The translations under genes were made by a program, and so were the position numbers. This document shows, in pieces, positions 12,194-64,000 of a stretch of DNA of 64,000 nt. Location: assembly GCF_000024845.1 (NCBI RefSeq), contig NC_013501.1:2212874-2276873 (forward strand). Direction: 5' to 3'. Numbering within the stretch: the stretch's first letter is position 1; each line of letters begins with the position of its first letter. The DNA comes from Rhodothermus marinus DSM 4252 (GTDB lineage: Bacteria; Bacteroidota; Rhodothermia; Rhodothermales; Rhodothermaceae). The notes under the pieces are model-generated. The model saw only the letters and a program-made list of their open reading frames with translations, did not search any database and had not been told where the DNA came from.

Positions 12194-13780
12194 TCAGCGA
12201 ACCGGCACGCGCGCCACGGGATAGTAACGTCCCGGTGCCAGGTGATCTTCCAGCAGGCCCCAGGCCACCAGCCCGTCGTCGGAGCGGGGCTCCAGCAACA
12301 GGGCGGCCAGCCGCCCCGTGCGTCCGTCGACGGTGACCAGACAACTCCCGGCCGGCGCGGCCAGCGTCTGTCGCTCGTAGGTCCCCCATACCTCCTGTCC
12401 CCGGTGCCCCTGGTAGGGCCGGTCGGCCACGGCCACCGAGTCGATCCGGAAACGCTCGACCTCCAGCTGAAGCCCGGCTTCCACCGGAACGCAGGGGATG
12501 CCGTGCACCTCGAGCAGATCCCGCACGCGGTCGAGTCCGGCCGGAATCAGATAGCCCCGGGGGATGGAGATCGTCTCGGTCGGTGCAAAGCGATCGTAGA
12601 GCGGCAGCATCTCCGGAAGCACCTCCGGACGGCGCTGCAGCATGAGCTGTCCGGTGTAGGGATGGCGCAGCGAATCGACCGTCCCCAGCAGAATGAGCGC
12701 CGGCTCCGGCGCCCGGTCGATGCGGGCGCGCAGCGCGATCGGCTCGCCCACCGGCGAAGCCTGCCGCACCTGTTCGACCAGCGAACGGATCTCGGAAGCC
12801 CGGGCGGCCGCAAACGAAAGCACCGCTTCGAGAAAGGCATACGTCGCCTCGATGCGCTCCTCGAACGTCGCGTACGCGTAGGCTTCGCTGAGCAGCCCCA
12901 GCATGCCCCGGAGGCCGACGTAGTTCGTGCCGAAGCGGGGTCGATGGTCGAAGGTGTACCAGCCGGGCGGCCGGTCGCTCCCCGGCCAGGGCAGGTTGCC
13001 GTAGTAGAAGAACTTCCACCGATGCTTCGTCCAGATCGTATCGTTGACGGCCGGCAGCCAGACCCGGCGCAGGTAGTCCACCAGCGGTTTCGGTGTGGAC
13101 GGGTGCAACGGCGGCGCGTAGGTGAGCGGATAGGCGTGGTAGGTGCCGTCCGTCGTGTGCAGATCGATGAAAATGTGCGGATCGTACGCACGCAGCAACC
13201 GGAGCAGCGAGCGCGTCTCGGGCGCATCGGCTTTCATAAAATCTCGGTTCAGATCGTACCCCTGCGCATTGGCCCGCTGACCCATGCCCCCGACAGGCCC
13301 GTTCTGCAATGGACGGTTGTAGAGACTGATGCGCTCGTTGCCGTCGGCGTTGTAGATGGGGGCCACCAGTAGCACGAGCGAGTCGGCCCACTCGGCATAC
13401 ATCCCGGCGGCCAGCGCCCGCAGCAGCATCAGGGCCGCTTCCTTGCCGACCACCTCGCCACCGTGGATATTGGCCAGAATCAACACGCGCAGCGGCGCCG
13501 ACGCAGCCCGCACGCCGTCGCCCGTTGCATTCACCACGTTCCCGTAGATCACCAGCGGTAGCGCGCGGCCTTCTGTCGTGTACCCGAAGCGCGTCACCTG
13601 AATCCGGTGCGAACTGGCCTCCAGCACGTCCAGAAACGCCAAGACCTCGTCGTAGCGCGTCGTCTCGGCAAAGCCCGTGGCCTCGGCCCGCGTCTGCAGA
13701 AAGGCCAGATCCACGCCCTGCCCGAAAGCCATCCGGGCCAGCAACAGCATCAGCAAAAGGCAACCGCCACGCATGTTCAT
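12194..13780 (-). CDS. M14 zinc carboxypeptidase
   Basis: A 528-residue exported metallocarboxypeptidase. The signal peptide is CLLLMLLLARMAFG after MNMRG. The zinc site is visible as HGGE in LANIHGGEVVGKEAAL (HxxE) and the later His in IFIDLHTTDGTYHAYPLTY, with a substrate-binding RDF in YDLNRDFMK. The C-terminal third is a beta-rich accessory region. ATG at 13780 overlaps the stop of the NSS transporter (ATGA), so they are translationally coupled: peptide trimming and amino-acid uptake are likely linked. A second in-frame Met at 13774 is also possible. Confidence 0.92.
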   Translation of the reverse strand: MNMRGGCLLLMLLLARMAFGQGVDLAFLQTRAEATGFAETTRYDEVLAFLDVLEASSHRIQVTRFGYTTEGRALPLVIYGNVVNATGDGVRAASAPLRVLILANIHGGEVVGKEAALMLLRALAAGMYAEWADSLVLLVAPIYNADGNERISLYNRPLQNGPVGGMGQRANAQGYDLNRDFMKADAPETRSLLRLLRAYDPHIFIDLHTTDGTYHAYPLTYAPPLHPSTPKPLVDYLRRVWLPAVNDTIWTKHRWKFFYYGNLPWPGSDRPPGWYTFDHRPRFGTNYVGLRGMLGLLSEAYAYATFEERIEATYAFLEAVLSFAAARASEIRSLVEQVRQASPVGEPIALRARIDRAPEPALILLGTVDSLRHPYTGQLMLQRRPEVLPEMLPLYDRFAPTETISIPRGYLIPAGLDRVRDLLEVHGIPCVPVEAGLQLEVERFRIDSVAVADRPYQGHRGQEVWGTYERQTLAAPAGSCLVTVDGRTGRLAALLLEPRSDDGLVAWGLLEDHLAPGRYYPVARVPVR

Positions 13781-49518: not shown

Positions 49519-49606
49519 GAACCTGCATTCGTTGTCCCGTTCTGGTGTCCCAAACGTCCCGCTGGCCGCCGGGTTGCCGGACGACGAAGAGAAAAACTCC
49601 ACGTCG

Positions 49607-51298
49607 TCACCAGGTGTAGACATACCGGAGCACCGTCAGCAATTCTGAAAACCCACCGGCGGCGCGTTCCGTGCGTCGCAGCTGTTGATCGAGGCTCAGC
49701 GTTCCCCGATAAGGCGACGGCAATTGATAGCGAAGGCCCCAGCGCAGCATCAGTTGCGTGGCGGTATCGACGGTCGTCAGGCGAGAAAGACCGGCGCTGG
49801 CCTGCAGCTGTAGTCCGGACCGCAGCGGATACTGCGCTGCTTCGCTGAAAGCCCAGATGCGTGTGCGCCAGCGGGGCATCCGCGTATCGGAAAAACTGAG
49901 CGTGGTGCTCAGCCGGAGCCGGGAAGGCATCTGGTAGCTATGTGCCAGTGTGAGCGTATGTGTGCGGTTGTGCACGCCGTCGGGATGTGTGAAGGTTCGG
50001 TCTTCCGAATCCTGAAAGCTGTACGTCAGGCTCAGCGTGTGCAGGTGGCCGTTCTGCTGCAACATCAGCCGGGGGGTCAGGCTCAGGCTCCGGGAAATGT
50101 TCTGCAGACGCAACGTGTCGGCCCGGGGCCTGAGCTGGAAGCCGTAGTTGCTGAAAGCTGCATCCAGTCCGAACCGAGTCTCGGGTTGCCAGGAAAGGTT
50201 CACGGCCACGATGGTGCGTGCCGTGGTGGCCAGCCGACTCTGGCGCAGGTTGTTGTAGCGCAGACCACCCCGCATACTCACCACCAGTCCCATGCGACGT
50301 AGCTGCAGCCGTGGTGCAACGGTCAGATCCAGCACGTCGCTTTCCAGTTGAGGCTGCCCGAGCGTCGTGTAGCCCGGCCCGATCCAGCGCCCGCCCAGCG
50401 CCACCGAAAAGCTGCTCGCCGGCTCCACGGTCAGTTCGGCCTCGGCCGCCCCATCGATATTCGACGAATGCCGGGGTGTGAACAGCCACGAAGGGATCGA
50501 GATGCCGATCTCGAGCTGATCGGATCGCAGATCCCGGCTGAAAGCTCCCACGGCTACCTCGCTCCGCCAGCGCACGTATCGCCCCAGCCGTAGCCCGGTC
50601 TGCAGAGAAGCCACTGTGTTTTCCTGCGGTGCAACCGCCATCCGTACAGGGCCATCAGGCGTCAGAAGCCACCGCAGCGACTCTCCCCGTGTCGTATCGT
50701 CCTTCTGATGGCTGACCGTCAGCAATACCTCGGTGGCACCCTGCTGAATACCCACCTGAACCGCCCAGAAATTGCGCGCATAACTCCCCGACAATCCGGC
50801 ATCCAGATCGGCTTCGCGGGGCGAGCGCGTGCGGCCATACAGAACCACCAGGCGCAGGGGACCGGGCGTCAGTTCCATCCCGGCCCCCCGCACCCGGATG
50901 CCGCCAAGGGTCAGGGGAGTGAGCGGACGTGTGAACGAACCCAGATGCAGTCGCAACCAGGGACCAATGCGCGGGCTGATACCAACCTGGTTGAAGGGCT
51001 GCAAACCCGGCAGGGTGACCCCCGGGGCTCCCTGAAATCGGCGTTCCTGGGTGCTTAACTGAAGTTCCAGCGGGATTTCCAGCCAGCGTCCGATGGATAC
51101 CACCGAACGTGCAAACAACCGTCCGTTCCAGGTAGGACGATAGGCGGCCGCCGGAGCGGACTCACTCGCCGAGAACTGTTCACCCGTCAGGCTCAGGCTC
51201 CCTGAAAACCGCACCGGCTGGCCGAAACATGCCGTACTCACCAGAACCAGCACCACCAGGGCAAGCCCGCCCTGCATCAGCCTGCTCATGGCCGTCAT
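49607..51298 (-). CDS. Large outer-membrane beta-barrel protein
   Basis: A 563-residue exported protein. The signal peptide (LMQGGLALVVLVLVSTACFG, then QPV) precedes a long series of alternating strands with Arg/Tyr/Leu patterns (WLEIPLELQLSTQERRFQ; RLHLGSFTRPLTPLTLGG; HTLSLTYSFQDSEDRTFT) that end in LLTVLRYVYTW, a terminal aromatic residue as in porins. This is a large barrel with no plug domain, unlike TonB receptors. The ATG at 51298 overlaps the stop of the TANFOR-like gene (ATGA), so the two are co-translated and may form a surface pair. Confidence 0.8.
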   Translation of the reverse strand: MTAMSRLMQGGLALVVLVLVSTACFGQPVRFSGSLSLTGEQFSASESAPAAAYRPTWNGRLFARSVVSIGRWLEIPLELQLSTQERRFQGAPGVTLPGLQPFNQVGISPRIGPWLRLHLGSFTRPLTPLTLGGIRVRGAGMELTPGPLRLVVLYGRTRSPREADLDAGLSGSYARNFWAVQVGIQQGATEVLLTVSHQKDDTTRGESLRWLLTPDGPVRMAVAPQENTVASLQTGLRLGRYVRWRSEVAVGAFSRDLRSDQLEIGISIPSWLFTPRHSSNIDGAAEAELTVEPASSFSVALGGRWIGPGYTTLGQPQLESDVLDLTVAPRLQLRRMGLVVSMRGGLRYNNLRQSRLATTARTIVAVNLSWQPETRFGLDAAFSNYGFQLRPRADTLRLQNISRSLSLTPRLMLQQNGHLHTLSLTYSFQDSEDRTFTHPDGVHNRTHTLTLAHSYQMPSRLRLSTTLSFSDTRMPRWRTRIWAFSEAAQYPLRSGLQLQASAGLSRLTTVDTATQLMLRWGLRYQLPSPYRGTLSLDQQLRRTERAAGGFSELLTVLRYVYTW

Positions 51299-53652
51299 TC
51301 CTGCACGACGATGGCCAGGTAGAGCGCATCTTTCGAAACAAAGCCCCAGACCGGTGGCACGGGCGCCCGCCGATCCCACATCTTGCGTTCGTTGTATTCC
51401 CCTTCCGCAATCCCGAAAATGCTGGAGGCTTCGTTGTCCATTCGCTGCGTTCCCGACGGCTGTCCGGGATCGGTGGTCGGTGGCTTCGGAGGGGCAAGGC
51501 GAAACCACATCCTGCGTTCGTTGTATTCCCCTTCTGCAATCCCGAAAATGCTGGAACCGTCTCCACCCGTTCGGCTCTCGGGTTGAAGGTTCATCTGAAT
51601 GGTGGTGGGGAAGGGCAGCCAGATGCGGGAAGGCTGGAAGGTGCCTTCCACCATGAACCCGATCGTGCGCACGCCCCTTCCTTTCCCCAGATTGTCCTTG
51701 ATTTCCCCGGTTGTTCTGAACCACCCTGCCCCTGCATCGCCGAAGACGAGCAGGCTCAGGACCGGACGGCTTGTCCGCTGCGTTTCCGAAGGCATACCGG
51801 GGTCCACCGTGGGCGGTTCGGGCGGAAGGATCCGATCCCACATTTTGCGTTCGTTGTATTCCCCTTCTGCAATACCGAAAATGCTGGAGGCTTCGTTGTC
51901 CATCCGGGCACTGCTCTGCTCAGGAGCGAACAGGTCGGTGAGCCCGGCATCCCGGACCAGCCGGTTGCCCGCTTCGATGCGATAGGGAAGGGCGGGAATA
52001 CAGTCGGTAGGACTGGTAGGTCCCGGCGACCCCGGAGGAATGGGCAGCCCCGGACAGGGGAAAGGCACTCCGGGGGGATCTCCTCCCTGTCGTCCGGTGG
52101 CGTCGAAATCGATCTCCAGAAGCGAGTGCGACCCGCCGTGGACCCGTCCGGTGGCGTCGAAGTCGATCTCCAGAAGTGAGTGCGACTGACCGATGACCGA
52201 GGAGACACTTCGGGCCTGAAGCCGGATCATGTTGTCGCCTTCCTGCGGCCGGGGTGGCCCAACCCGTTCAAAATCCTTTTGCAGACCTTCAATAAGCTCC
52301 ATAAACTCATCCCGGGAAAGGGTATCGGGCAGGCGAAACTCAAAAAGGACCAAGTGGAGCGTGGGCGGCGTTCCGGGATTTGCAGTTCGAGACTCGGATT
52401 CAATGATGGCGTAAATGTCAGATTCACGGAAGGGGCTTGCACTTCTTGCTTCAGATTCATTGCCGGATCCCTCGCTTGAAGTATTATTGCCCGTATCGTT
52501 TGTCTGACGGGCTCTCATGTTTCTAATGGCATTCATGGCAACATCATGACGAGCTTTTATTCCATTAGAAGTTGTACTGAAGCGTCTTGACTGGATCTGG
52601 ATCTGTGGCCGGCCGTCGCTTCCGGGCACCATCTTGACCTCATAGATCACCGCCCGCTCTCCCTTGACCTCCTGGGTCGAGGGCGTCCCGCCGGGCAGTT
52701 GCCCCCGGAGTTCCAGGGTGCCCCTGTAGAGATCCAGCAGGTTCACCCGGAAGTGCAGCATTCCGGCAAATTGGACCGATGCGGCGGCATTCGAAGTATC
52801 GGGTTCCTCGGCGCCAACGGGACGGAAACTCTCGATGGTACTCCAACCGTCGTTTCGTCCCATTGGCTGACCATTCACCACATGCTGCACGCGCCAGACC
52901 AGGTCCACCGCGTCGGGATAGGTGAGAAGATCCGGATCGGTGGGCAGATAGGGGTAACTGGTCGCCGCAACTTCCGTGGTAAACAGCAGGGGGTTTTCGC
53001 TCATGGCCTGCTCGGGCGTCTGGCCTTCGAAGCGTGGCTTGATGACCAGCCGATAGGCACTGGCCGCAAACTGCGGCGTGGCCGGTGTCCATCGAAAGAC
53101 GGGAGGCCGCTGCATCACGTTCACCACGGTACCTCCTACCGGCTCCAGCAACACGGGCGGGTCGGGCAGCACCACGGCAAAGTGTGGACAGGGGATCGTT
53201 TCCCCCAGTCGTTGCCCGTCTGCGCTTACCACCCACAGACACAGCTCGTAGCCGCCTTCCGGCAGCGCTCCGCTCGTGGCCACCCGCTCGGCCTCGGCCT
53301 CGTCGTAGTCGATGGCGTCAAGCGCCACCGCTTCGCGCCAGCTCAGGCTCACCGCACCGCCGGCGGGCAGATCGAAACGCGGCAGACTCGGATGCTGATC
53401 ACGGATCCGGGCCAGCACCTGACCGCCCTCGCGTGTAAGCTGACCACCCAGGGTCAGCCCTTCAAGTGGCTCCGGGGTCGGATTGATTACAAGGATGCGA
53501 ATCTGGGCCTCGTTCCGCTCCCATTCGCTCAGATACGGCGACAGATTGGATCCGAGCGGAAACTGGACCTGCAGTTGCACCTGTGCCTGCGCCGATACCA
53601 CGAAAAGCAACAGTCCGACCCAGCGCAGCACATAGCGTGACCCTGTTTTCAT
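51295..53652 (-). CDS. TANFOR-like secreted protein with in-frame repeat units
   Basis: A 785-residue exported protein. Signal peptide (LRWVGLLLFVVSAQA, then QVQLQVQF) and an N-terminal region with the feel of TANFOR-type surface proteins: SPYLSEWERNEAQIRILVIN, LPEGGYELCLWVVSADGQ and RPPVFRWTPATPQ. The C-terminal half holds two motif families: SHSLLEIDFDATGR twice (52090-52131 and 52144-52185) and SSIFGIAEGEYNERKMW or its variant three times (51376, 51505 and 51838), partly preceded by MDNEA. Repeat copies are near-identical even at silent sites. Function unknown; TANFOR assignment from memory of the family. Confidence 0.7.
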   Translation of the reverse strand: MKTGSRYVLRWVGLLLFVVSAQAQVQLQVQFPLGSNLSPYLSEWERNEAQIRILVINPTPEPLEGLTLGGQLTREGGQVLARIRDQHPSLPRFDLPAGGAVSLSWREAVALDAIDYDEAEAERVATSGALPEGGYELCLWVVSADGQRLGETIPCPHFAVVLPDPPVLLEPVGGTVVNVMQRPPVFRWTPATPQFAASAYRLVIKPRFEGQTPEQAMSENPLLFTTEVAATSYPYLPTDPDLLTYPDAVDLVWRVQHVVNGQPMGRNDGWSTIESFRPVGAEEPDTSNAAASVQFAGMLHFRVNLLDLYRGTLELRGQLPGGTPSTQEVKGERAVIYEVKMVPGSDGRPQIQIQSRRFSTTSNGIKARHDVAMNAIRNMRARQTNDTGNNTSSEGSGNESEARSASPFRESDIYAIIESESRTANPGTPPTLHLVLFEFRLPDTLSRDEFMELIEGLQKDFERVGPPRPQEGDNMIRLQARSVSSVIGQSHSLLEIDFDATGRVHGGSHSLLEIDFDATGRQGGDPPGVPFPCPGLPIPPGSPGPTSPTDCIPALPYRIEAGNRLVRDAGLTDLFAPEQSSARMDNEASSIFGIAEGEYNERKMWDRILPPEPPTVDPGMPSETQRTSRPVLSLLVFGDAGAGWFRTTGEIKDNLGKGRGVRTIGFMVEGTFQPSRIWLPFPTTIQMNLQPESRTGGDGSSIFGIAEGEYNERRMWFRLAPPKPPTTDPGQPSGTQRMDNEASSIFGIAEGEYNERKMWDRRAPVPPVWGFVSKDALYLAIVVQE
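51376..51441 (-). repeat. In-frame repeat MDNEA-SSIFGIAEGEYNERKMW, last copy
   Basis: The third copy (in reading order) inside the TANFOR-like gene, followed by DRRAP. Together with 51838-51903 and 51505-51555 it forms a family of near-identical 51- to 66-base units separated by 80-300 bases of diverged linker. Confidence 0.85.
51505..51555 (-). repeat. In-frame repeat SSIFGIAEGEYNERRMW, middle copy
   Basis: The same unit without the MDNEA prefix (GGDGSSIFG instead) and with Lys changed to Arg. It is followed by FRLAPPKPPTTDPGQPSGTQ, which matches DRILPPEPPTVDPGMPSETQ after the first copy, so the duplicated block is longer than the core. Confidence 0.85.
51838..51903 (-). repeat. In-frame repeat MDNEA-SSIFGIAEGEYNERKMW, first copy
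   Basis: The first copy in reading order (nearest the N-terminus), in front of DRILPPEPPTVDPGMPSETQR. It differs from the last copy at only a few silent bases, evidence for recent duplication or gene conversion. Confidence 0.85.
52090..52185 (-). repeat. Tandem in-frame repeat SHSLLEIDFDATGR
   Basis: Two 42-base copies (52144-52185 and 52090-52131) separated by 12 bases (encoding VHGG). They encode the same 14 residues and differ at only a few third positions. They sit just before a Pro/Gly-rich linker in the TANFOR-like protein. Confidence 0.85.
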
Positions 53653-54105
53653 GGCACCCTCCTGATCTGCGTTGAACCAGAAATAGAGTTACCAGGAAAA
53701 GTCAGGTCCTCAATCGGTCAAACTACGTGCCTTCTAATGTGAAGAATATATGATGCCCCAGAAGCAAATGCAAGCGTGCAGGATACTATTTGCAGACAAA
53801 AATGGATTATTCAAGCCTCTGCATATTTTGAAACGTGCCGTTGTACGCCTATCCGATAAAATCCAGAAACTCAGATGTTTGCCAGATCGTGATCCAACCG
53901 GATTCAACTATTCGAACCTGCTGAAAAGGGTTATCGCCTGACTGCTACAGGCCCTTTCTTTCAGATGTAAAACTTGCGAGCAGATATGATAGAATGCACA
54001 CCTCCTGAACTTTGCACAATCGTACCGCGCCGGCTCCACGGCTCCCATGGAATGACCCCATCTGTGTTCCTTTTTTGCACAGGAACGTGTGCTTTCTGCA
54101 CAGCC
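53653..54105. other. 453-base A/T-rich intergenic stretch
   Basis: No supported gene. The 53750-53941 open frame is short, A/T-rich and has no Shine-Dalgarno. On the minus strand CAAACTA at 53719-53725 reads TAGTTTG, a -7-like box about 67 bases upstream of the TANFOR-like gene. The remainder shows no structure that I can name. Confidence 0.6.
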
Positions 54106-56817
54106 TCACTGGCTTTCTATCACGATACGAGCCGGACGCAGACCGGGGGCGCTGGCCGTGACGGTAATAGTGCCGGGCATGCCACGCCGGGCGCGCACGA
54201 TGGCCAGCACCAGCCCGTTGAAGGCCGGCCGCTCATCCGAAGAAAACGGAATGAAGCTGGTCGGGTCGCCGTTGGCCGTGGCCACCAGCTCGCCGGGTCC
54301 TTCGACGGTGAAACGCACCGGATTGTCCGCCGTGGGCACGGTTCGCCCTTCTGCATCGACCACCCGCACCGTGATGAATGCCAGGTCGTAGCCGTCGGCC
54401 TGGATCCGGACACGGTCCGCCTCGGCGGCCAGCGCGGTCGGCTGGCCGGTGGTCTGCACGACGGCTTCGGCCCACTTCCGGCCGTTTTTATAGGCCACGG
54501 CGCGTAGTTCGCCGGGCTCGTAGCGCACGTCGTCCCAGCGCAGGCGGTACTGGTAGGGCCCTTTTTTCTTGCGGCCGAGCGATCGGCCATTGAGGAACAG
54601 TTCCACCTCGTCGCCCGAGGTGAACACATGCACGGGCGTGATCTCCCCCACGCGATCCGGCCAGTTCCAGTGGGGCAGGATATGCACCATCGGTAGCTCG
54701 GGACGCCAGCGGGCCTGATACAGGTAAAACCGATCCTTTTTGAAACCGGCCAGATCGATGATCCCGAAATAAGAGCTGCGCGAACTGTAGTAGGGCGTGG
54801 GCTCGCCCAGATAGTCCCAGCCGCTCCAGACGAAACCGCCGGCCACAAAAGGATGGAGTTCCTGCACGAAAAACACCTTGTCCACCGAAGAGCCAAAATC
54901 CGCCGTATATAGCTCATAGCCGCTTACCTGCCTGGTAACCGGATCACCCCCCTGGCCTTCACGAACAGGTGCACTCAGGGCATCTGTAACTGGAAAGAGA
55001 TAGGCGCCCCGCGAACTTACAGCGGCCGCATTTTCACAACTGATAATCATTTTTGTAGGGAAATGTATGCGAAATGCGCTGTAAAGGGGTGGTGTGGTGA
55101 TCCCCTGCAAACCAGTATAGGCCGGCATGTCCCGGATCCCTTCACCCTGATAGTTCAGGCAGATGACGTCCACCACCTCGGGCATCGGCGTCCCCGGCCG
55201 GGCGAAATTCATAGACGCCGTCACCGGCCGCGTGGGATCCTCCTCTTTGATGATGCGGGCCAGTCGCCGGGCCAGCTCGGCCCCCTCGCGGCCGCTTCCC
55301 TGCTCGCCCACTTCATTGCCGAAGCTCCAGAGAATGACCGACGGGTGGTTGCGGTCGCGGCGGATAAAGGCGCGCAGGTCCTGCTCGTGCCAGTCCGGAA
55401 AGATCAGGTGGAAGTCGAGCGGGGTTTTTCGCATCTCCCAGACGTCGAAGATCTCGTCGAGCACGAGGAAGCCCATGCGGTCGGTAAGCTCCAGCAGCTC
55501 GGGAGCTGGCGGGTTATGGGCGGTACGAATGGCGTTGGCGCCCATCTCACGCAGCAGTTCGAGCTGGCGCTCGGCCGCCCTTCGGTTGAAGGCCGCGCCC
55601 AGCGGCCCCAGGTCGTGATGCTGGTTAACGCCTTTGATTTCGATGCGCTCGCCGTTGACCAGCAGCCCGCGCTCCGGATCGAACCGCAGCGAGCGGATGC
55701 CGAAGCGGGTTTCGTAGCGATCGACCGGGCGGCCGTCGAGCCACAGCGTGGTGACGGCCACGTAGCGGTGAGGCGTCTGCGTGGGCGGAGGTCCCCACAG
55801 CTTCGGGTTGCGAACCGTCGCCATGCCGGACGCCGTAGCCTGCCCCTGCGCCGGTACCCGCACCTGCCGGGGCGGGAACGCGGCGACGGCATCGCCCCGT
55901 GGCCGGTCCTCTTCGCCCAGCTCGAAGATCTCTGTCGTAACGCGCACCGAGACGGCCCGGGCCCATCGGTTTTCGATGGTCACATCCAGCACAACGGTGG
56001 CCGAGTCGGTCGAGACGTAGGGTGTGCGCACGAACGTGCCCCATTGCGCCACGTGCACCGGATGCGTCTTGACCAGCCAGACGTTGCGGTACAATCCACC
56101 GCCGGGATACCAGCGCGACGAGCGTGGAAGCACCTCAAGTCGGATGGCAAGCTGGTTTTCCGCGCCCCAGCGGACGTATGGGGTCAGATCCACGCGCCAG
56201 GAAGCGTAGCCGTAGGGCCAGCCACCCACCAGGTAGCCGTTCAGCCAGACGACGGCGTGAGCCATCGCGCCCTCGACGTCCAGGTAGATCGCCCGCTCCG
56301 AATCGGCGGCCGGGATGAAGATTTTCTTCCGGTACCAGGCCACGCCCGGGCTGGGCAGCCAGCCCATGCCGCCGTCCACCTCGGGATGTGGTTGTTCCAC
56401 GAAGGGGCCCCGAATGGCCCAGTCGTGCGGCAGGTCTACTCGTTCCCAGCCGCTATCGTCGAAGTCCGGCTGCACGAACGGGAAGTCACGCCCGGGATGT
56501 CCCGGGGGTCGCCTGTAACGTCGGGCCGGATCTTTGATGAAAGGATTGCCCGTGGGCAGAATCCAGGGCTTAAGGACGATCGCCTCCTTCGGTGCTCCGG
56601 CGGTGTCTGCATCCATCCGGTACATCGGCCACACGTCGTAGACCAGTCCGTCGGCTTCCGCCCGGGAGGGGTACTTGAAGAAGCGCCAGTCTTCATTAAG
56701 CAAAACCCGCTCGCGCAGCAGCTCCTGCGCGGGTTGTGCCTGCAATGGCAGGATCGTCAGCAGCAGGAGCAGCCCGCCTCCTAAAAACATCCGATAGCGA
56801 GAACCGGAGATGCGCAT
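54106..56817 (-). CDS. Glycoside hydrolase family 2 protein (beta-galactosidase/glucuronidase type)
   Basis: A 903-residue exported GH2 enzyme. Signal peptide (MFLGGGLLLLLTILPLQA, then QPAQE), then the sugar-binding jelly-roll (WERVDLPHDWAIRGPF; AVVWLNGYLVGGWPYGYAS), an Ig-like domain and the TIM barrel with GVNQHHDLGPLGAAFNRRA, the acid/base Glu in ILWSFGNEVGEQ and the nucleophile Glu in KMIISCENAAA. It ends with Ig-like/Big domains (DRVRIQADGYDLAFITVRVV; GTITVTASAPGLRPARIVI). The specificity is not readable. Start ATG at 56817; a frame start at 56838 is also possible. A palindrome upstream is a candidate operator. Confidence 0.93.
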   Translation of the reverse strand: MRISGSRYRMFLGGGLLLLLTILPLQAQPAQELLRERVLLNEDWRFFKYPSRAEADGLVYDVWPMYRMDADTAGAPKEAIVLKPWILPTGNPFIKDPARRYRRPPGHPGRDFPFVQPDFDDSGWERVDLPHDWAIRGPFVEQPHPEVDGGMGWLPSPGVAWYRKKIFIPAADSERAIYLDVEGAMAHAVVWLNGYLVGGWPYGYASWRVDLTPYVRWGAENQLAIRLEVLPRSSRWYPGGGLYRNVWLVKTHPVHVAQWGTFVRTPYVSTDSATVVLDVTIENRWARAVSVRVTTEIFELGEEDRPRGDAVAAFPPRQVRVPAQGQATASGMATVRNPKLWGPPPTQTPHRYVAVTTLWLDGRPVDRYETRFGIRSLRFDPERGLLVNGERIEIKGVNQHHDLGPLGAAFNRRAAERQLELLREMGANAIRTAHNPPAPELLELTDRMGFLVLDEIFDVWEMRKTPLDFHLIFPDWHEQDLRAFIRRDRNHPSVILWSFGNEVGEQGSGREGAELARRLARIIKEEDPTRPVTASMNFARPGTPMPEVVDVICLNYQGEGIRDMPAYTGLQGITTPPLYSAFRIHFPTKMIISCENAAAVSSRGAYLFPVTDALSAPVREGQGGDPVTRQVSGYELYTADFGSSVDKVFFVQELHPFVAGGFVWSGWDYLGEPTPYYSSRSSYFGIIDLAGFKKDRFYLYQARWRPELPMVHILPHWNWPDRVGEITPVHVFTSGDEVELFLNGRSLGRKKKGPYQYRLRWDDVRYEPGELRAVAYKNGRKWAEAVVQTTGQPTALAAEADRVRIQADGYDLAFITVRVVDAEGRTVPTADNPVRFTVEGPGELVATANGDPTSFIPFSSDERPAFNGLVLAIVRARRGMPGTITVTASAPGLRPARIVIESQ

Positions 56818-57311
56818 AACAGCCAGGCGTTGCCTCACCGAATATTTTCAGAAAAACTATAATGCCACAGAATCGCAAACAACAATATCAAAACGCTTCA
56901 ATATTGTTCACAGAAACCAAACAAATCATTCGATGTAAATGAAATAGCTGGTTTCGGACGCAGACGGCTTTTATCGCGTTCAGCCTCCAGGAAACGGCGG
57001 TGCTACCGTACCCTTATCTCCTGAAAGAGCGCGTGGTCGGTGGCCTCCCGGGTCAATCCGGTCCTGGTCACTCCAGCGGTGCCTGCAAGCCATAGCCGGC
57101 CGATAGGTCCCCGCGAACGACGGCAATCCTGGACGCAGGTCCGGGAACGCCATTTTGCAATCGCTCACCAGATCGGACAGACAGGTTGACCACAGCATTT
57201 GAACGGGATAAAGCGGGCACGTTTTCAGTGGACCGGCAACAGCCAGAAATGGCCGGGTGGGTGTTGCGGTCGTGTTTCCATACGCGACAGCAACCAGTTT
57301 CGCAACGAGAT
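56818..57311. other. 494-base intergenic stretch upstream of the GH2 gene
   Basis: No gene seen. The first 120 bases are A/T rich and contain the candidate operator at 56881-56908. The remaining 350 bases are G+C-rich without a frame of coding character. Confidence 0.6.
56881..56908 (-). promoter_or_regulatory. Candidate LacI-type operator upstream of the GH2 gene
   Basis: A 28-base imperfect palindrome: arms AACAATAT / ATATTGTT (perfect 8 bp) around a CAAAACGCTTCA centre, symmetric about the CG at 56894-56895 with 11 of 14 positions paired. Centred CG palindromes are typical of LacI/GntR-family operators. It lies 64 bases upstream of the GH2 ATG. No regulator gene is adjacent. Confidence 0.45.
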
Positions 57312-57572
57312 ATGGCGACAGAAAACCGGGCTTTAGCACAAGCCATTGCAGAGGCGCGAGAGTTCGAGCCCGACCGCTATCCGGGAGGGCTCAAAATGGC
57401 TTTCTTCCGGCTGATGGACGTGCCCCGGGACGAAGCGCCCGAGCTGTGGGCGGAACTGCGCCGGGCGCTTCGGGAAAATCCGCACCTGAGGGATCCGGAC
57501 GTTCGCGCCTTTCTGGAGCGCTCCGACCTGGCCGAGCGCGGCTACTGGTGGTTCGATCCGGACCGATGGTAG
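57312..57572 (+). CDS. Unrecognised 86-residue acidic protein
   Basis: Begins MATENRALAQAIAEAREFEP and continues LKMAFFRLMDVPRDEAPELW, ending SDLAERGYWWFDPDRW. It is soluble and acidic with a helical core and an aromatic-rich C-terminus, and it has no recognised family. The frame is open upstream to 57186 but composition and start favour 57312. It is isolated, followed by a possibly decayed stretch. Confidence 0.55.
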   Translation: MATENRALAQAIAEAREFEPDRYPGGLKMAFFRLMDVPRDEAPELWAELRRALRENPHLRDPDVRAFLERSDLAERGYWWFDPDRW

Positions 57573-57754
57573 CCGGCCATACCCTGCTCCGTCCATGACG
57601 AGTCCCCGGACTTCCAGCTTCCGGGCCAGGCGTTAACGTGCAAGCGCCTCGAGCCGATACGGAAAGCCGCACGGATCAGCTTCAAGGCCACCTCTTTGCC
57701 CAGCACGTCCCACACCAGGCGGCCGTCCTCTTCAGATCCTCGTACTCGAAGTAA
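57573..57754 (-). pseudogene. Possible decayed reading frame
   Basis: The minus strand reads DYFEYEDL in one frame and then, after an apparent frame change, EEDGRLVWDVLGKEVALKLI, RAAFRIGSRRLHVNAWPGSW in another. The second part has the composition of a real protein but no start, and the frame breaks make it look like a remnant. It lies just beyond the stop of the second tandem small gene. Low certainty. Confidence 0.3.
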
Positions 57755-57991
57755 TCAGCCGTCTTCCTCCGGCTCACCGCCAAGGGCAATGTCCAGGTCG
57801 CGCCGATAGCGCTCGCTGTCGATCCCCAGCCGTGCTTCGAGCGCCTTCAGCTCGCTGTAGGTGAGCTTGCCCAGCGCGAAGGCTTCGGTGATCCGGCCCC
57901 AGAGAATGAGCCGGGCGGCCTCCGTCAGCACGCCCTTTTGCCGGGCGCGCTCGATGACCTCTTCGTACTCCGGGTAAAATGAACCGCTCAT
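57755..57991 (-). CDS. Small 78-residue paralog 2 (tandem pair)
   Basis: Reads MSGSFYPEYEEVIERARQ, then KGVLTEAARLILWGRITEAF, LTYSELKALEARLGIDSERY and RRDLDIALGGEPEEDG. It aligns without gaps to the gene upstream, 43 of 78 residues identical, including the LTxxAxLIxWGRIxEA core, xLTxxELxxLEAxL and GEPEED tail. It overlaps that gene as ATGA. No family recognised. The pattern suggests a small helical dimeric protein. Confidence 0.7.
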   Translation of the reverse strand: MSGSFYPEYEEVIERARQKGVLTEAARLILWGRITEAFALGKLTYSELKALEARLGIDSERYRRDLDIALGGEPEEDG

Positions 57992-58224
57992 GCGTCTTCC
58001 TCCGGTTCGCCGGTCATGGCTACGTCCAGGTCGCGCAGGTAGCGACGGCGGTCGATCTCCAGCAGCGCTTCGAGCCGCTCGAGCTCCTCGAGCGTGAGAT
58101 CGCCCCGGCCGTAGGCTTCGGAGATGCGGCCCCAGAAGATCAGCTGGGCCTCGGTGGTGAGATAGCCGCCCCGGCGGGCACGCTCCAGCGTATCGCGAAG
58201 TACTTCGAAGTAAACGCCGCTCAT
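57988..58224 (-). CDS. Small 78-residue paralog 1 (tandem pair)
   Basis: Reads MSGVYFEVLRDTLERARR, then GGYLTTEAQLIFWGRISEAY, LTLEELERLEALLEIDRRRY and LRDLDVAMTGEPEEDA. It is the first of two tandem copies with equal length. The stop overlaps the second ATG, so both are made from one message, consistent with a heterodimer or with recent duplication. No family recognised. Confidence 0.7.
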   Translation of the reverse strand: MSGVYFEVLRDTLERARRGGYLTTEAQLIFWGRISEAYGRGDLTLEELERLEALLEIDRRRYLRDLDVAMTGEPEEDA

Positions 58225-58622
58225 GGCTCCCGGCTTTCGATCGCCGCCGTATCGCCGCCGTGTGCGGCGGCGGGTGGCGAGGGCCGGCACACGCACAGCC
58301 CGACCTGGCGGAGGGTTTCTTCAATAGCTCGCGCTTCTTCTACGCGCAGATCGCTTCGGCGATCGAGCCGGAGCCTGACGGCGTCGCAACTGATGCCACT
58401 CCGCTATGCACCGCGAGCAGACGGCCGAAGGGGCGTGCTTGCGACCACCGCTCCCCGTAGTCCGGCGCGGCGGCCGCGACGTGCGATGTCCAAAATCCAG
58501 AGGACCCTCGCCAAAAATTCGAAAAGCCGGTAGATACACTGACCTACCGGCTTTTCCAGCGGAACGCTCGAGAGAAACCTTTACGCTCTCTAAAAAATCA
58601 ACGGCTTATAGAGAAATCCTTG
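58225..58622. other. 398-base intergenic stretch before tRNA-Ser
   Basis: G+C-rich, with GCCGCCGTAT/GTGTGCGGCGGCGG-type short repeats near 58240-58275 and the tRNA-Ser terminator at 58521-58556. A minus-strand frame near 58256-58390 (VRLRLDRRSDLRVEEARAIE) has coding-like composition but no start. I call no gene. Confidence 0.5.
58521..58556 (-). terminator. tRNA-Ser terminator
   Basis: A perfect 13-bp stem (GAAAAGCCGGTAG / CTACCGGCTTTTC) with a 10-nt loop and T-rich exit on the minus strand, 67 bases past the tRNA-Ser 3' end. Confidence 0.75.
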
Positions 58623-58710
58623 CGGAGGGGGAGGGATTCGAACCCTCGGTGCCCGCAATGGGCACAACGGTTTTCGAGACCGCCCCGTTCGACCGCTCCG
58701 GCACCCCTCC
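58623..58710 (-). tRNA. tRNA-Ser (CGA)
   Basis: An 88-base class II tRNA on the minus strand. Acceptor GGAGGGG pairs with CCCCTCC, the anticodon arm is GCGGT-CTCGAAA-ACCGT (anticodon CGA), a long variable arm follows (TGCCCATTGCGGGCA), and the T arm is GAGGGTTCGAATCCCTC. Discriminator G; CCA not encoded. Confidence 0.96.
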
Positions 58711-58864
58711 GGCGCCCGTAAACGAACAACCCCGCCGTGAGGTTCTTTCAGCTTCCTGCAAAGAAGGTCTTTTTGACCTCGCTTTTTTCCAACGCCTGAG
58801 CCCCTGTGATTTTTCGGCAATCGTCTGATTTTTCTGGGCGTTCCGTCGTATTTTGAAGCCAGGC

Positions 58865-60196
58865 ATGCATCGCTCGACGGCTGGGGCTGTGAAGCAGAGT
58901 CGCTTCAAAATCTTTTCGGATCCGGTGCACGGATTCATCTCCGTGCCCAAGAACCTGCTGCTGGAGCTGATCGAGACGCCCGAGGTGCAGCGCCTGCGAC
59001 GCATCCGGCAGCTCGGGCTGGGCCACCTGGTATTTCCGGGCGCCGAGCACACACGCTTCAACCACGCGCTGGGTGCCATGGCGCTCATGCAGGAGGCGCT
59101 GGCCAACCTTTCAGAAAAAGGCACGCCCATCTCCGAAGAAGAGCACCTGGCCGCCTGCGCCGCCGCGCTGCTGCACGACATCGGCCATGGGCCGTTCTCC
59201 CACACGCTCGAACACCAGCTCATCGAGGGTTTCCGGCACGAAGCCATGAGCCGCCGGCTCCTGCTGCGCCTGAACGAACGCTTTGGCGGCGCGCTGGAGC
59301 TGACCATCAAGATCTTCGACGATGCGTACGAACGCCCCTTCTTCCACCAGCTCGTCTCCAGCCAGCTCGACATGGACCGCCTCGACTACCTGCGCCGCGA
59401 TTCGTTCTACACGGGCGTGGTCGAAGGCAAGGTCGGCGTGCAGCGCATCATCAAAACGCTCCGGGTGCATCCGACGGAAGGCGGGCCCGACAGCCGCATC
59501 GTGATCGAGTCGAAGGGCATCTATGCCGTGGAAAACTTCCTGATCGCGCGGCGGCTCATGTACTGGCAGGTCTATCTGCACAAGACAGTGCTGGCGGCCG
59601 ATGCGCTGCTGCGGGCCATCATCCGACGCGCCCGCACGCTCCTGCAGCGCGGCGACGAGGACGCGGCCGCCCGTTGCTCTCCGGCGCTTCGTTTCTTCCT
59701 GGAGCATCCGCTCCACGCCCCGGAAGCGCTGGATCGGGACGACGTAATCGAGACGTTCTGCCAACTCGACGACGTGGACGTGCTGTTCAGCCTGAAGCAG
59801 TGGAGCCAGGCGCGCGATCCGGTGCTGGCCGACCTGAGCCGCCGCTTCATTCACCGCCGCTTTTTCCGGACCACGTTTCTGGCCGCGCCACCCTCCGAAG
59901 CGCAACTGGCAGCCTGGCACGAGCGGGTGGCCCGGTGGCTGGTGCAGGAAGGGATCGTCCCGGCCGCACTGGCCGACGAAGCCGCTTCCTACTACCTGAC
60001 GGCCGATGCCTCGGAGCATACGGCCTACGAGACCGACGCCGACCCGATTCCCGTCATCGACCGCGACGACCAGATCCGCGAACTCTCACGCACGACCGAA
60101 GCAACCGCCATCGACGCGCTGGCCCGCTACGTGGTCAAACCCTACCTCTGTTTGCCCAAGGAGGTGTCGGTCGAAGCTCCGGCGCTTTCGTCCTGA
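58865..60196 (+). CDS. HD-domain phosphohydrolase (SAMHD1/dGTPase-like)
   Basis: A 443-residue metal-dependent phosphohydrolase. The HD site is visible: His in EHTRFNHALGAMAL, HD in ALLHDIGHGPFSHTLE and Asp in SQLDMDRLDYLRRDSFYTG. FKIFSDPVHGFISVPKNLLL and EVQRLRRIRQLG are the family's N-terminal mark. Relatives hydrolyse dNTPs or other nucleotides. The frame allows a TTG at 58853; ATG at 58865 was used. TATTTTG at 58849-58855 could be a -7 box, giving a nearly leaderless message. The tail overlaps the convergent GNAT-ABC gene by 55 bases. Confidence 0.93.
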   Translation: MHRSTAGAVKQSRFKIFSDPVHGFISVPKNLLLELIETPEVQRLRRIRQLGLGHLVFPGAEHTRFNHALGAMALMQEALANLSEKGTPISEEEHLAACAAALLHDIGHGPFSHTLEHQLIEGFRHEAMSRRLLLRLNERFGGALELTIKIFDDAYERPFFHQLVSSQLDMDRLDYLRRDSFYTGVVEGKVGVQRIIKTLRVHPTEGGPDSRIVIESKGIYAVENFLIARRLMYWQVYLHKTVLAADALLRAIIRRARTLLQRGDEDAAARCSPALRFFLEHPLHAPEALDRDDVIETFCQLDDVDVLFSLKQWSQARDPVLADLSRRFIHRRFFRTTFLAAPPSEAQLAAWHERVARWLVQEGIVPAALADEAASYYLTADASEHTAYETDADPIPVIDRDDQIRELSRTTEATAIDALARYVVKPYLCLPKEVSVEAPALSS

Positions 60197-62376
60197 TCGG
60201 ACGCGCCCTGCTGATCTTCGGCGCGCAACCGCACCCAGAGCTGGTGACCGGGACGCCGACGGATCGGCACGGGTCGATCCAGACGGCGGGCGCGCTCCAT
60301 CACCCAGGCGTAGAGCGGACGCCCCTGCGCGTAGGCTTCGAGCGTTTCGGCGTCGGCCAGATGCTTGTCGGCATGGGCGCCGAGCTCCTCCACGGAAAAC
60401 GGTCCCCGTGTTTCCCGGATTTCGGCCGTGCCGATCACCTTGCCTCCGCTGATAATCCCGATGCGCCCGCGCACACGCGTGGGGTGCTTCCGGATTTCCC
60501 AGGTTTTCTTACCCTCCACGACGAAGCTGGCGTACGGCTCGCGGATGAACAGGCCCAGTTCGGGCAGTTCGTCGGCCCGAAAGAGCGTGCCATAGCCGAC
60601 CATGTAGATGGTGTCGGGCTCCAGCACGCGAAGCAGTTCAGGCCGGTGCGTCACCAGCACCAGCGTGATGCCGTGCGTGCGGGCCAGTTCGGCCAGCTTG
60701 CGTCCCACCCGGGCGGCCATGCGCGGGTCGAGATGCGCCGCAAATTCGTCGATGAGCAGCAGATTGGGCCGATGCGCCAGCGCCCAGGCCAGTTGCACGC
60801 GGGCTTTCTGTCCGGTGGACAGCTCCGCGTAGGGCGCCCGGAACAGCACGGCGTCGGCCAGGCCGGCCGCGTTCAGGATCTCGATGGCCAGTGCGGCATC
60901 GCCCGTAATCCGATAGAGCGACTCCAACACGGGCTGCGTGCCCAGCTCTGGCTCGGCCTCACCGGGAATCAGCGCCTGCAGCCGCACGTTGTCGGGCATC
61001 CGGATCTCCCCTTCATCGGCCCGGTAGAGCGGGTCGTCCCGCCCGGTGGCCGCCCCGATCAGCATTCGGAGCAGTGTGGTCTTGCCGCTTCCCGAAGCGC
61101 CCACAATGGCGTTGACCGTGCCCGGCTCCAGCCGGAAGTCGGCATCTCGGAAGACATAGGTCTGAATCTCGCGCTCTTCCACGCCGAAAGCTTCCAGCGC
61201 CTCACGCACCGGTTCGGAAAGTCCTTCCAGATTTAGCCGGTTGTGATACGTTTTGGTCACCCGGTGCAGCACCACCGGTCCGCTCAGCGGCTCGACCGGC
61301 GTAAAGCGCGGGCGATAGAGCCGTCCGCCATGCGCCCGGGCCAGCTCGTCTTCCTGCAGAAAGCGCTCGATGGCCTCGCGGGCCGTCTCGTCCAGCGGCA
61401 GGTAGAGCGCCGGACGGCCCGAGCCCGTCTCGAACAGAAAGACGAACCCGGCCTTCTCCATGAACGGATGGAAACGGGCCATCTGCGCCACGGTCTCGAC
61501 AGCCCGTTTGGGCAGGCGCATGTCGGGTATCCAGCGCTCGCGCACCCAGTCCATCATGCAGTGCAGCGCCTGCACGCCCAGTCCGTCGGCGCGGTAGTCC
61601 GGATGCACCACCACGCGCGCCAGTCGGGCCACGGGCGAGCGGGCGCGGGCCAGCACCTTCCCCTGCTCGTCCCACCAGGCTTCGGGCGGCACGTCCTGAT
61701 TAGGATGGAACGGATGGTCGAACCATTCCGGCGGAAAGATACGGCGGCGGATGTCGCGGTCGAGCGTCCCGTCGGGACGGCGGCGGTGCAGCAGCGGCAG
61801 CGGCGGATCGACGCGCACGTAGCCCACCACCTCGGGTTCGTAGGGCTGGCGGTCGAGCAGTTCCAGCACCAGAAAGCGCGAGGCACGGGTGGCGTCTTTC
61901 AGGTCGTGGAAACGCATGGGGCCGTGTCCGGCCGGGCAGTCCGGCCGGGCGTTGGCGGCCCGATAGGTGCCGCACCGCTCACAATACCAGAGGGCCAGCA
62001 CGCGCTCGCGCGAGGCGTAGTGGTACTGTTCCAGTTCGACGATGGCCGCGTAGTCGCGCTCGTAGCGGGCCTCGCGGGCACGTAGCCGGTAGCGGTAAAG
62101 CACCCGGTCGGAAAAAAGCGAACGACGCTCCAGCGTGTAGATGCGCTCGAACAGCGGCCAGACGGCCACGCGGGCCGTCCGAAGTGAATAGTCGTCGAAG
62201 CCGGGCTGCGGCTTTTCGGCGGCGAGCTGCACGCGCTGGCCCACGCGCAACCACTGCGCCACCGTGCCCGTCATGGGCAGCCGCCAGCGATTGCCGTCGT
62301 CGGTCTCGACCTCCACAAAGGCCAGGTAGCGATAGGACGGCCGCGCCAGCTCGATATTTTTAATCTGCCCCCGCAT
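60142..62376 (-). CDS. Zinc finger + GNAT-like + ABC ATPase + ASCH fusion protein
   Basis: A 744-residue four-part protein. Residues 1-130: beta-rich domain with no name. 131-155: CERCGTYRAANARPDCPAGH (C-x2-C-x11-C-x3-H), zinc-finger-like. About 160-330: GNAT-like, with RVVVHPDYRADGLGVQAL (R-x-x-G-x-G acetyl-CoA loop at 262-267). 405-605: ABC ATPase with Walker A GASGSGKTT (426-434), signature LSTGQKARVQLA (519-530), Walker B LLLIDEFAAHLD and VTHR (H-loop His 577). About 608-705: ASCH domain (GLFIREPYASFVVEGKKTWE). No transmembrane part, so not a transporter; RNA modification or handling is plausible but unproven. Confidence 0.85.
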   Translation of the reverse strand: MRGQIKNIELARPSYRYLAFVEVETDDGNRWRLPMTGTVAQWLRVGQRVQLAAEKPQPGFDDYSLRTARVAVWPLFERIYTLERRSLFSDRVLYRYRLRAREARYERDYAAIVELEQYHYASRERVLALWYCERCGTYRAANARPDCPAGHGPMRFHDLKDATRASRFLVLELLDRQPYEPEVVGYVRVDPPLPLLHRRRPDGTLDRDIRRRIFPPEWFDHPFHPNQDVPPEAWWDEQGKVLARARSPVARLARVVVHPDYRADGLGVQALHCMMDWVRERWIPDMRLPKRAVETVAQMARFHPFMEKAGFVFLFETGSGRPALYLPLDETAREAIERFLQEDELARAHGGRLYRPRFTPVEPLSGPVVLHRVTKTYHNRLNLEGLSEPVREALEAFGVEEREIQTYVFRDADFRLEPGTVNAIVGASGSGKTTLLRMLIGAATGRDDPLYRADEGEIRMPDNVRLQALIPGEAEPELGTQPVLESLYRITGDAALAIEILNAAGLADAVLFRAPYAELSTGQKARVQLAWALAHRPNLLLIDEFAAHLDPRMAARVGRKLAELARTHGITLVLVTHRPELLRVLEPDTIYMVGYGTLFRADELPELGLFIREPYASFVVEGKKTWEIRKHPTRVRGRIGIISGGKVIGTAEIRETRGPFSVEELGAHADKHLADAETLEAYAQGRPLYAWVMERARRLDRPVPIRRRPGHQLWVRLRAEDQQGASDQDESAGASTDTSLGKQR

Positions 62377-62480
62377 CGGATCGTTCTATCAGCATGGCGG
62401 TTGCAAAGCTCGCTTCGATAACGTTTTTTATGGCGGGCGTTCCTGTGCTGACCCCAGGAATTTCGTGTTTGTAACAGCCT

Positions 62481-63512
62481 ATGACCACGGCGTTTGGCTT
62501 CAATCCTTCGCACGCCCGGCATTATGAGCCCGGGCATGTCGAGCGGCCGGAGCGGCTCGAAGCGATCCGGGAGCGGCTTTCGTCTTCGCCAAACTGGAAC
62601 CGCTTACAGCACGTCGAACCGCTGGCGGTCGATCTGGACGTGGCCCGCCTGGTGCATCGCCGAACCTACCTGGAGCGGTTGCAGCAGGCACTGCACCGGG
62701 CTCCCACCCGCCTCGACCCGGACACCTACGTTCAGCCCGAGAGCCTGACGGTCGCGCTGGAAGCCGTCGGCACCCTGCTGGCCGTCACCCGGGCGGTGCT
62801 CGACGGCCACGCCGACAACGGCTTTGCGGCGATTCGCCCGCCGGGCCACCATGCCACGCCAGAACGGGCCATGGGCTTCTGCCTGCTGTCGAACGTGGCC
62901 ATTGCCGTCCGCTGGGCCCAGCAGACCTTCGGCGTCGAGCGCGTGGCGATCGTGGACTTCGACGTGCACCACGGCAACGGCACCCAGGAAGTTTTCTACG
63001 AGGACCCGAACGTGCTGTTTATCAGCGTGCACCAGTTTCCGCACTACCCCGGCACCGGCCGCATGGAAGAGATCGGTGAGGGACGTGGCCGGGGTACCAC
63101 GGTGAATGTACCGCTGCCGCCTTTCACCGGCGATGCCGGCTACCTGGAAGTCTTCCGCCGGTTGCTGGGACCGATCGTGCGCCGATTCCGTCCCGAGGTG
63201 CTCTTCGTCTCGGCCGGCTACGATGCGCACTGGCGGGACCCGCTCAGCGCGATGCAGCTGACCGTGGCGGGCTTTGCGCAACTGGTGTATGAACTGATGG
63301 AATGGGCCGATGCCTACTGCGACAACCGGCTGATCGCCGCGCTCGAAGGCGGCTACGATGCCGAGGCGCTGGCCGCCAGCGTGGACGCCACCGTCGTCCG
63401 CCTGCTCGATCCGGTGGCCGAAATCGAAGATCCAATCGGCCCCTCGCCCCATGAGCCCGCCGACGTACGGGATCTGATCTACGAACTCCGCCTGCTGCAC
63501 AAAGTCGCCTGA
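62481..63512 (+). CDS. Histone deacetylase superfamily (acetoin-utilisation-like) deacetylase
   Basis: A 343-residue zinc deacetylase. Active-site marks: IRPPGHHATPERAMGFCLL (the two His), IVDFDVHHGNGTQEVFYED (zinc Asp and His), SVHQFPHYPGTGRMEEIG and VSAGYDAHWRDPLS (zinc Asp), then LEGGYDAEALAAS. Bacterial members remove acetyl groups from proteins or polyamines. It starts about 100 bases past the divergent fusion gene and is followed after four bases by the tryptophanase gene, suggesting an operon. Confidence 0.94.
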   Translation: MTTAFGFNPSHARHYEPGHVERPERLEAIRERLSSSPNWNRLQHVEPLAVDLDVARLVHRRTYLERLQQALHRAPTRLDPDTYVQPESLTVALEAVGTLLAVTRAVLDGHADNGFAAIRPPGHHATPERAMGFCLLSNVAIAVRWAQQTFGVERVAIVDFDVHHGNGTQEVFYEDPNVLFISVHQFPHYPGTGRMEEIGEGRGRGTTVNVPLPPFTGDAGYLEVFRRLLGPIVRRFRPEVLFVSAGYDAHWRDPLSAMQLTVAGFAQLVYELMEWADAYCDNRLIAALEGGYDAEALAASVDATVVRLLDPVAEIEDPIGPSPHEPADVRDLIYELRLLHKVA

Positions 63513-63516
63513 AGCC

Positions 63517-64000
63517 ATGCGTACGATCATCGAGCCGTTTCGCATCAAGGTGGTCGAGCCCCTGCGCATGACCACCCGCGAAGAGCGCCGGCGGCTGATC
63601 CGCGAAGCCCACTACAACCTGTTCAACCTGCACGCCGACGACGTGCTCATCGACCTGCTGACCGACTCGGGCACCTCGGCCATGAGCAGCGCCCAGTGGT
63701 CGGCCATCATGCGCGGCGACGAAAGCTACGCGGGTTCGCCTTCTTACTACCGCTTCGAGGCGGCCGTGCGCGCGCTGATGCCTTTCCGCCACATCATCCC
63801 CACCCATCAGGGACGCGCGGCCGAAAAGATCCTGTTCAGCATCGTCGGCGGTCCGGGCCGTATCATTCCGAGCAATACGCACTTCGACACGACGCGCGCC
63901 AACATCGAGGCAACCGGCGCCGAGGCGGTCGATCTGGTCATTCCGGAAGGCCGCGATCCCGAAAGCCGTCACCCCTTCAAAGGCAACATCGATCTGGATC
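63517..64000 (+). CDS. tnaA: Tryptophanase / tyrosine phenol-lyase family (partial at window end)
   Basis: 161 codons visible and the frame runs off the end. It starts MRTIIEPFRIKVVEPLRMT, with the family marks LIREAHYNLFNLHADDVLID, LLTDSGTSAMSSAQWSAIMR, GDESYAGSPSYYRFEAAVR and IPTHQGRAAEKILFS, then NTHFDTTRANIEATGAEA. This is the PLP-dependent beta-eliminating lyase family; the PLP-binding Lys lies beyond the window. Tryptophanase is somewhat favoured, but tyrosine phenol-lyase cannot be excluded. It follows the deacetylase gene after four bases. Confidence 0.9.
   Translation, partial: MRTIIEPFRIKVVEPLRMTTREERRRLIREAHYNLFNLHADDVLIDLLTDSGTSAMSSAQWSAIMRGDESYAGSPSYYRFEAAVRALMPFRHIIPTHQGRAAEKILFSIVGGPGRIIPSNTHFDTTRANIEATGAEAVDLVIPEGRDPESRHPFKGNIDLD

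Follow-up and report, generated by a model that had tools for sequence, protein, structure and literature searches.

We propose that two adjacent small genes of Rhodothermus marinus DSM 4252, designated imm1 and imm2, encode immunity proteins orphaned by the decay of a prophage. Today they would most likely give passive protection against related toxins, and we assign this reading as a whole a probability of about 75%. This predicted identity is supported by gene order, and the "immunity" label draws on the gene order at two toxin loci, the size and charge of the proteins, and the pattern of decay. The pair lies in a window of 64,000 nucleotides of contig NC_013501.1, the whole stretch of DNA that was analyzed, and positions refer to this window unless another contig or locus is named.

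Layout and relatives of the gene pair

Both genes are encoded on the minus strand. The first, imm1 (57988-58224), is an open frame of 78 aa running from ATG to TGA; the second, imm2 (57755-57991), is likewise an open frame of 78 aa, and the stop of the former and the start of the latter share the sequence ATGA (57988-57991). BLASTP aligned the two products without gaps (E=3e-28), with 43 of 78 residues identical (55%) and 54 of 78 similar, bearing out the initial annotation, which had described equal-length paralogs with this identity overlapping as ATGA. Both genes, their order, and the ATGA overlap were also found in G002, the genome closest to that of the window (G000). A GGAGGA run is located immediately 5′ of the imm2 start. 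The open frame that ends at the imm1 start (58222) was without a phage relative.

The comparison of G000 with G002 revealed 10 nonsynonymous and 18 synonymous changes in imm1 and imm2 together, on about 342 and 114 sites, respectively. Nonsynonymous changes were depleted, a sign of purifying selection, in a binomial test (p=1.3e-5 for both genes, p=0.02 for imm1, and p=1.6e-4 for imm2), although these p-values are only indicative because the test involves just two genomes in a recombining mosaic region. Given this synonymous-site bias and the relatives of the genes in two further Rhodothermus genomes and two phage contigs, imm1 and imm2 appear to be more than a chance pairing. The bias and the GGAGGA run before imm2 also favor the predicted translation of the pair.

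The initial annotation had described the family as unknown, and searches of Pfam, NCBIfam, PHROGs, and PADLOC with imm1 and imm2 returned sub-threshold chance matches only, and no known housekeeping family was matched in these library profile searches. A sequence search of the PDB found a designed helical protein and similar entries but no convincing chain. The structure model of the immunity protein was confident (pLDDT 85.8) and helical, with four helices, and a fold search with this model gave a best E of 1 and no known immunity fold. The family proteins are acidic, with pI values of 4.4-4.7.

Homologs of the pair were found in four of the seven genomes of the genus, and 395 genomes sampled across the phylum added a single distant homolog. 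While a single-sequence search of genome contigs returned nothing, a profile search of these contigs had one sole match, in the Rhodothermus MAG G006. A search of viral contigs detected a 91%-identical homolog in two IMG/VR contigs, which are nearly identical in DNA and were therefore counted as one phage. An alignment of seven family sequences contained 29 invariant columns, including the LT..A.LI.WGR..EA core already seen in the initial annotation and a D..RY..D.D.A..GEPE tail. In this alignment, imm1 grouped with the phage/G006 type (91% protein identity to the phage homolog; 94% DNA identity over 179 bp), and imm2 with the homolog from genome G003 that follows an intact CdiA_C domain. An EEYA tail present in the single-copy homologs is missing from both imm1 and imm2. 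The distant homolog, of 78 aa (E=1.7e-7), comes from a different family of the phylum (G303; contig L064, 1492-1728) and overlaps a short upstream open frame near the contig end; no toxin was seen beside it there, and it possibly represents a further toxin-immunity context.

The phage toxin locus and its decay in Rhodothermus

In the phage contig L031, the homolog (1904-2149) is a single copy directly downstream of a 385-aa gene (754-1911), whose 3′ end it overlaps in a start/stop arrangement. The C-terminal domain of the 385-aa product, encoded at 1522-1908, matched CdiA_C (PF18451; E=2.1e-8, above the Pfam cut-off). The contig belongs to a tailed phage, with Terminase_3, Portal_Mu, and a major head protein, and a tape measure in its sister contig. 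The toxin-immunity block lies on the strand opposite to the portal and terminase genes, with the toxin gene inverted and two genes from the portal, and adjoins a divergent gene matching phrog_836, "late transcriptional activator."

Published work (PMC9990079) classes SitA3 and the CdiA-CTII of B. pseudomallei 1026b, both members of PF18451, as tRNases with a PD-(D/E)XK fold. A DEYWEFKT stretch, conserved in both Rhodothermus-type CdiA_C domains (those of L031 and G003), would fit a PD-(D/E)XK nuclease site. The toxin domains are basic (pI 9.3-9.7), opposite in charge to the acidic immunity proteins, which, together with retention of the small genes without the toxin, is consistent with a possible neutralization. 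The two toxin copies are diverged versions of one toxin domain; a different toxin domain was not seen, and phage and plasmid records contained no relatives of the domain. Its structure model was poor (pLDDT 59), and the fold matches obtained with it were disregarded for this reason.

The N-terminal half of the phage toxin resembles phage proteins encoded beside the portal gene, that is, in the MuF position. In phage contig L055, a homolog without a toxin domain (45% over 92 aa) ends soon past a shared GGGYNCRH motif. It directly follows a gene presumed by its position to encode the portal, and the next morphogenesis-region gene comes after it with no imm-like small gene. Pelagibacter phages likewise encode toxin-less homologs (E=1e-3) between annotated portal and scaffold genes. 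PF04233 (MuF1), a profile that marks the MuF superfamily, had no match in the phage records G040 and G041 or in Pfam scans of the toxin protein, and TIGR01641 reached only E=0.05 with the N-terminal half, below the cut-off. Since the L055 and Pelagibacter phage homologs lie near the portal, and since Jamet et al. (2017, PMC5576092) added MuF3 and MuF4 on the grounds that they immediately follow the portal gene, the N-terminal half may be described as MuF-like by position rather than as a proven MuF member.

Rhodothermus genomes carry this locus in a series of decay states. In G003 (locus L010), an open CdiA_C domain (PF18451; E=2.9e-7, above cut-off) is retained with an intact imm homolog directly downstream, and a frameshift interrupts the region of the toxin gene that encodes the N-terminal part. 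This remnant adjoins an aconitase-like gene and tRNA-Ala(CGC), both of which also border the phage contig at its far end, and its gene order is collinear with that of the phage, with most phage genes missing. It is a second, independent locus of the predicted toxin-immunity type; both there and in L031, the small gene directly follows a known C-terminal toxin domain, as in polymorphic toxin-immunity systems, whereas the window itself is toxin-less. A second imm homolog in G003 (locus L012, 7340-7545) is broken; it borders a stretch of N, and no toxin was seen there. In G006, an intact imm homolog follows a stop-ridden toxin remnant.

The genomes G000 and G002 each contain two intact imm homologs. 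Neither a CdiA_C domain nor phage terminase relatives were detected anywhere in these two genomes, and because the toxin domain is not detectable, the predicted immunity genes imm1 and imm2 are considered orphaned there. The small gene has stayed open in three lineages although the toxin is damaged (G003 and G006) or gone (G000/G002). Since imm1 is of the phage/G006 type and imm2 of the G003 type, the pair is probably a union of variants specific for two toxins and not the product of a recent duplication.

A trace of the phage remains next to the pair in the window. The frame-broken stretch noticed earlier after the two genes (57573-57754, minus strand) is indeed a remnant, that of a decayed Mor/C-like phage activator gene; compared with its phage counterpart, it has lost about 14 bases in one deletion and 11 in another and contains frameshifts. 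Positions 57667-57744 show 92% DNA identity over 79 bp to positions 235-313 of L031, and the remnant also has a protein match within its own genome (E=1.3e-6). Intact relatives of this now broken copy match the phrog_836 late transcriptional activator profile with E=1.8e-5 and 5.8e-5, values to be read in light of PHROGs having no curated cut-off; no Pfam model matched them. The remnant is not a third paralog of the pair.

Proposed orphan immunity and competing explanations

We suggest the following sequence of events. The intact phage would encode a two-part toxin, in which a part resembling portal-adjacent head proteins is followed by a C-terminal CdiA_C nuclease with a PD-(D/E)XK fold. As proposed for MuF toxins (PMC5576092), it would travel with the phage particle or be set free by lysogens. 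The nuclease domain would cut nucleic acid, with tRNA as the substrate of its known relatives, and this basic domain would be bound and blocked by the small acidic helical protein so that lysogens survive their own toxin. The Rhodothermus lineage would then have lost the toxin and nearly all phage genes. Two diverged immunity genes, each apparently stemming from a different toxin-immunity variant, would have become neighbors coupled by ATGA, and both have stayed intact. Their present role would most likely be passive protection against incoming phages or neighbors with related toxins. A host with two immunity variants would be expected to resist phages bearing either toxin. The more specific proposal that the pair constitutes an anti-phage defense by captured antidotes, in which the two immunity proteins would counter two different variants of a virion-borne nuclease toxin delivered upon infection and so keep these phages from crippling the cell, is offered tentatively, and we put it at clearly less than even odds.

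The strongest competitor of a protective role accepts the immunity origin and holds that imm1 and imm2 are now debris that has not yet decayed and gives no protection. In its favor, the neighboring activator gene is broken, the close relationship of G000 and G002 has left little time for decay, and the degraded homolog in G003 indicates that genes of this family can also decay, a point that counts against our preferred explanation. On the other hand, the strong depletion of nonsynonymous changes between G000 and G002, the two open frames and the ATGA overlap kept intact in both genomes, and the persistence of the small gene in three lineages with a damaged or missing toxin all argue against debris. 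The depletion, together with the conserved frames and overlap, favors a retained function over debris, as an indication rather than as proof, and we consider the debris explanation rather unlikely.

It is also conceivable, though improbable, that the family comprises a structural, chaperone, or regulatory protein of the phage head-packaging region that merely lies behind a toxin-bearing gene. The phage homolog is located among head-packaging genes, and no library names the family as immunity. However, toxin and small gene form a block of their own, with portal and terminase on the other strand, the L055 protein in the MuF position lacks both the toxin domain and such a small gene, and retention after the loss of the phage genes would be unexpected of a structural helper.

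The initial annotation had considered the pair typical of accessory or toxin-antitoxin-like units. This was partly correct, in that the two genes are homologs of a small gene that follows a phage-borne nuclease toxin and lie in an eroded prophage remnant, but the pair is not a toxin with its antitoxin, as both paralogs are predicted to be of the antidote type. Type II toxins and antitoxins are mutually unrelated proteins. Despite the small overlapping genes and the accessory region, a self-standing toxin-antitoxin pair with one paralog as the toxin is therefore very improbable, as imm1 and imm2 are paralogs with 55% identity over their full length, no toxin-antitoxin model in Pfam, NCBIfam, or PADLOC was matched, and in the phages, G003, and G006, the CdiA_C toxin or what remains of it is accompanied by just one of the types.

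The orphan immunity explanation can be placed among known systems. The phage locus is similar to the MuF polymorphic toxins that Jamet et al. (2017, PMC5576092) described in temperate phages. There, a portal-adjacent head-module protein with a C-terminal nuclease toxin usually has directly downstream a small ORF (<150 aa) that is interpreted as an immunity gene, and the Bp1026b-type toxin (cd13442) is among the MuF toxin domains listed there. Unlike these toxins, which come mainly from Firmicutes, the Rhodothermus phage protein has an N-terminal half without PF04233, its block is opposite in strand to portal and terminase, its host belongs to the Rhodothermota, and the toxin is gone in the window. 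The phage and G003 toxin domains share membership in PF18451, above the curated cut-off, with CdiA-CTII of Bp1026b and SitA3 (PMC9990079, PMC8546572), but the delivery part is a phage head-type protein instead of CdiA or the SitA lipoprotein, and the imm1/imm2 family has no convincing PDB match for comparison with the immunity proteins of those systems. Orphan immunity genes of type VI and type VII secretion systems are likewise kept without a toxin, sometimes in arrays of non-identical paralogs (PMC5361080, PMC9484751, PMC10470768); the origin proposed here differs in being a phage-borne toxin of a decayed prophage rather than a secretion-system effector. The Bacteroides prophage toxin Bxa is also a MuF-type toxin with two adjacent immunity genes, Bsi and BAH (PMC11699363), although these differ in mechanism from each other and accompany an intact ADP-ribosyltransferase toxin, whereas imm1 and imm2 are paralogs and the lost toxin is from a different family. 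Immunity proteins that cross-protect against a PD-(D/E)XK effector (PMC12483513) have been described, as has a nuclease with two immunity proteins (PMC13392607). Our literature search, with its incomplete coverage, found no published case in which immunity to a MuF toxin is orphaned.

If correct, the orphan immunity explanation would suggest which partner and function belong to a protein family without a library match, add a thermophilic phage of the Rhodothermota to those with phage-head-associated polymorphic toxins, and provide a natural case of antidotes outliving their prophage. Should the orphan pair protect its host against phage-carried toxin, it would become directly testable whether such toxins affect the cell being infected and favor immunity in hosts.

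The surrounding region

A tRNA-Ser(CGA) gene identified by ARAGORN and Rfam (58622-58710, minus strand) lies near the pair. Its neighborhood varies among Rhodothermus genomes: the distance between this tRNA gene and an HD-domain gene is about 3.7 kb in G003, G004, and G005, compared with 0.14 kb in the window, and the tRNA site is possibly an integration or insertion hot spot. Across positions 54000-64000, the divergence between G000 and G002 is mosaic, with blocks of 0-1% alternating with blocks of about 10%, which suggests recombination. The very low divergence at 58200-58500 had raised the possibility of a hidden RNA, which was rejected since the mosaic contains many such 0-1% blocks and the tRNA was the only Rfam match above the gathering score. 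A weak DNA match at 13405-13461 was taken as chance, being inside an unrelated long reading frame that looks peptidase-like by eye.

An 86-aa open frame on the plus strand (57312-57572) ends beside the activator remnant. Within the genus, it is found only in G000 and G002, each of which has a second copy that is 54% identical and contains an internal TAG, and it matched no family in Pfam, NCBIfam, PHROGs, or PADLOC. Farther away, a block of about 4.5 kb (49578-54128) is present in G000 and absent from the same place in G002; it contains a 785-aa open frame on the minus strand (51295-53652) with internal repeats such as FGIAEGEYNERKMW.
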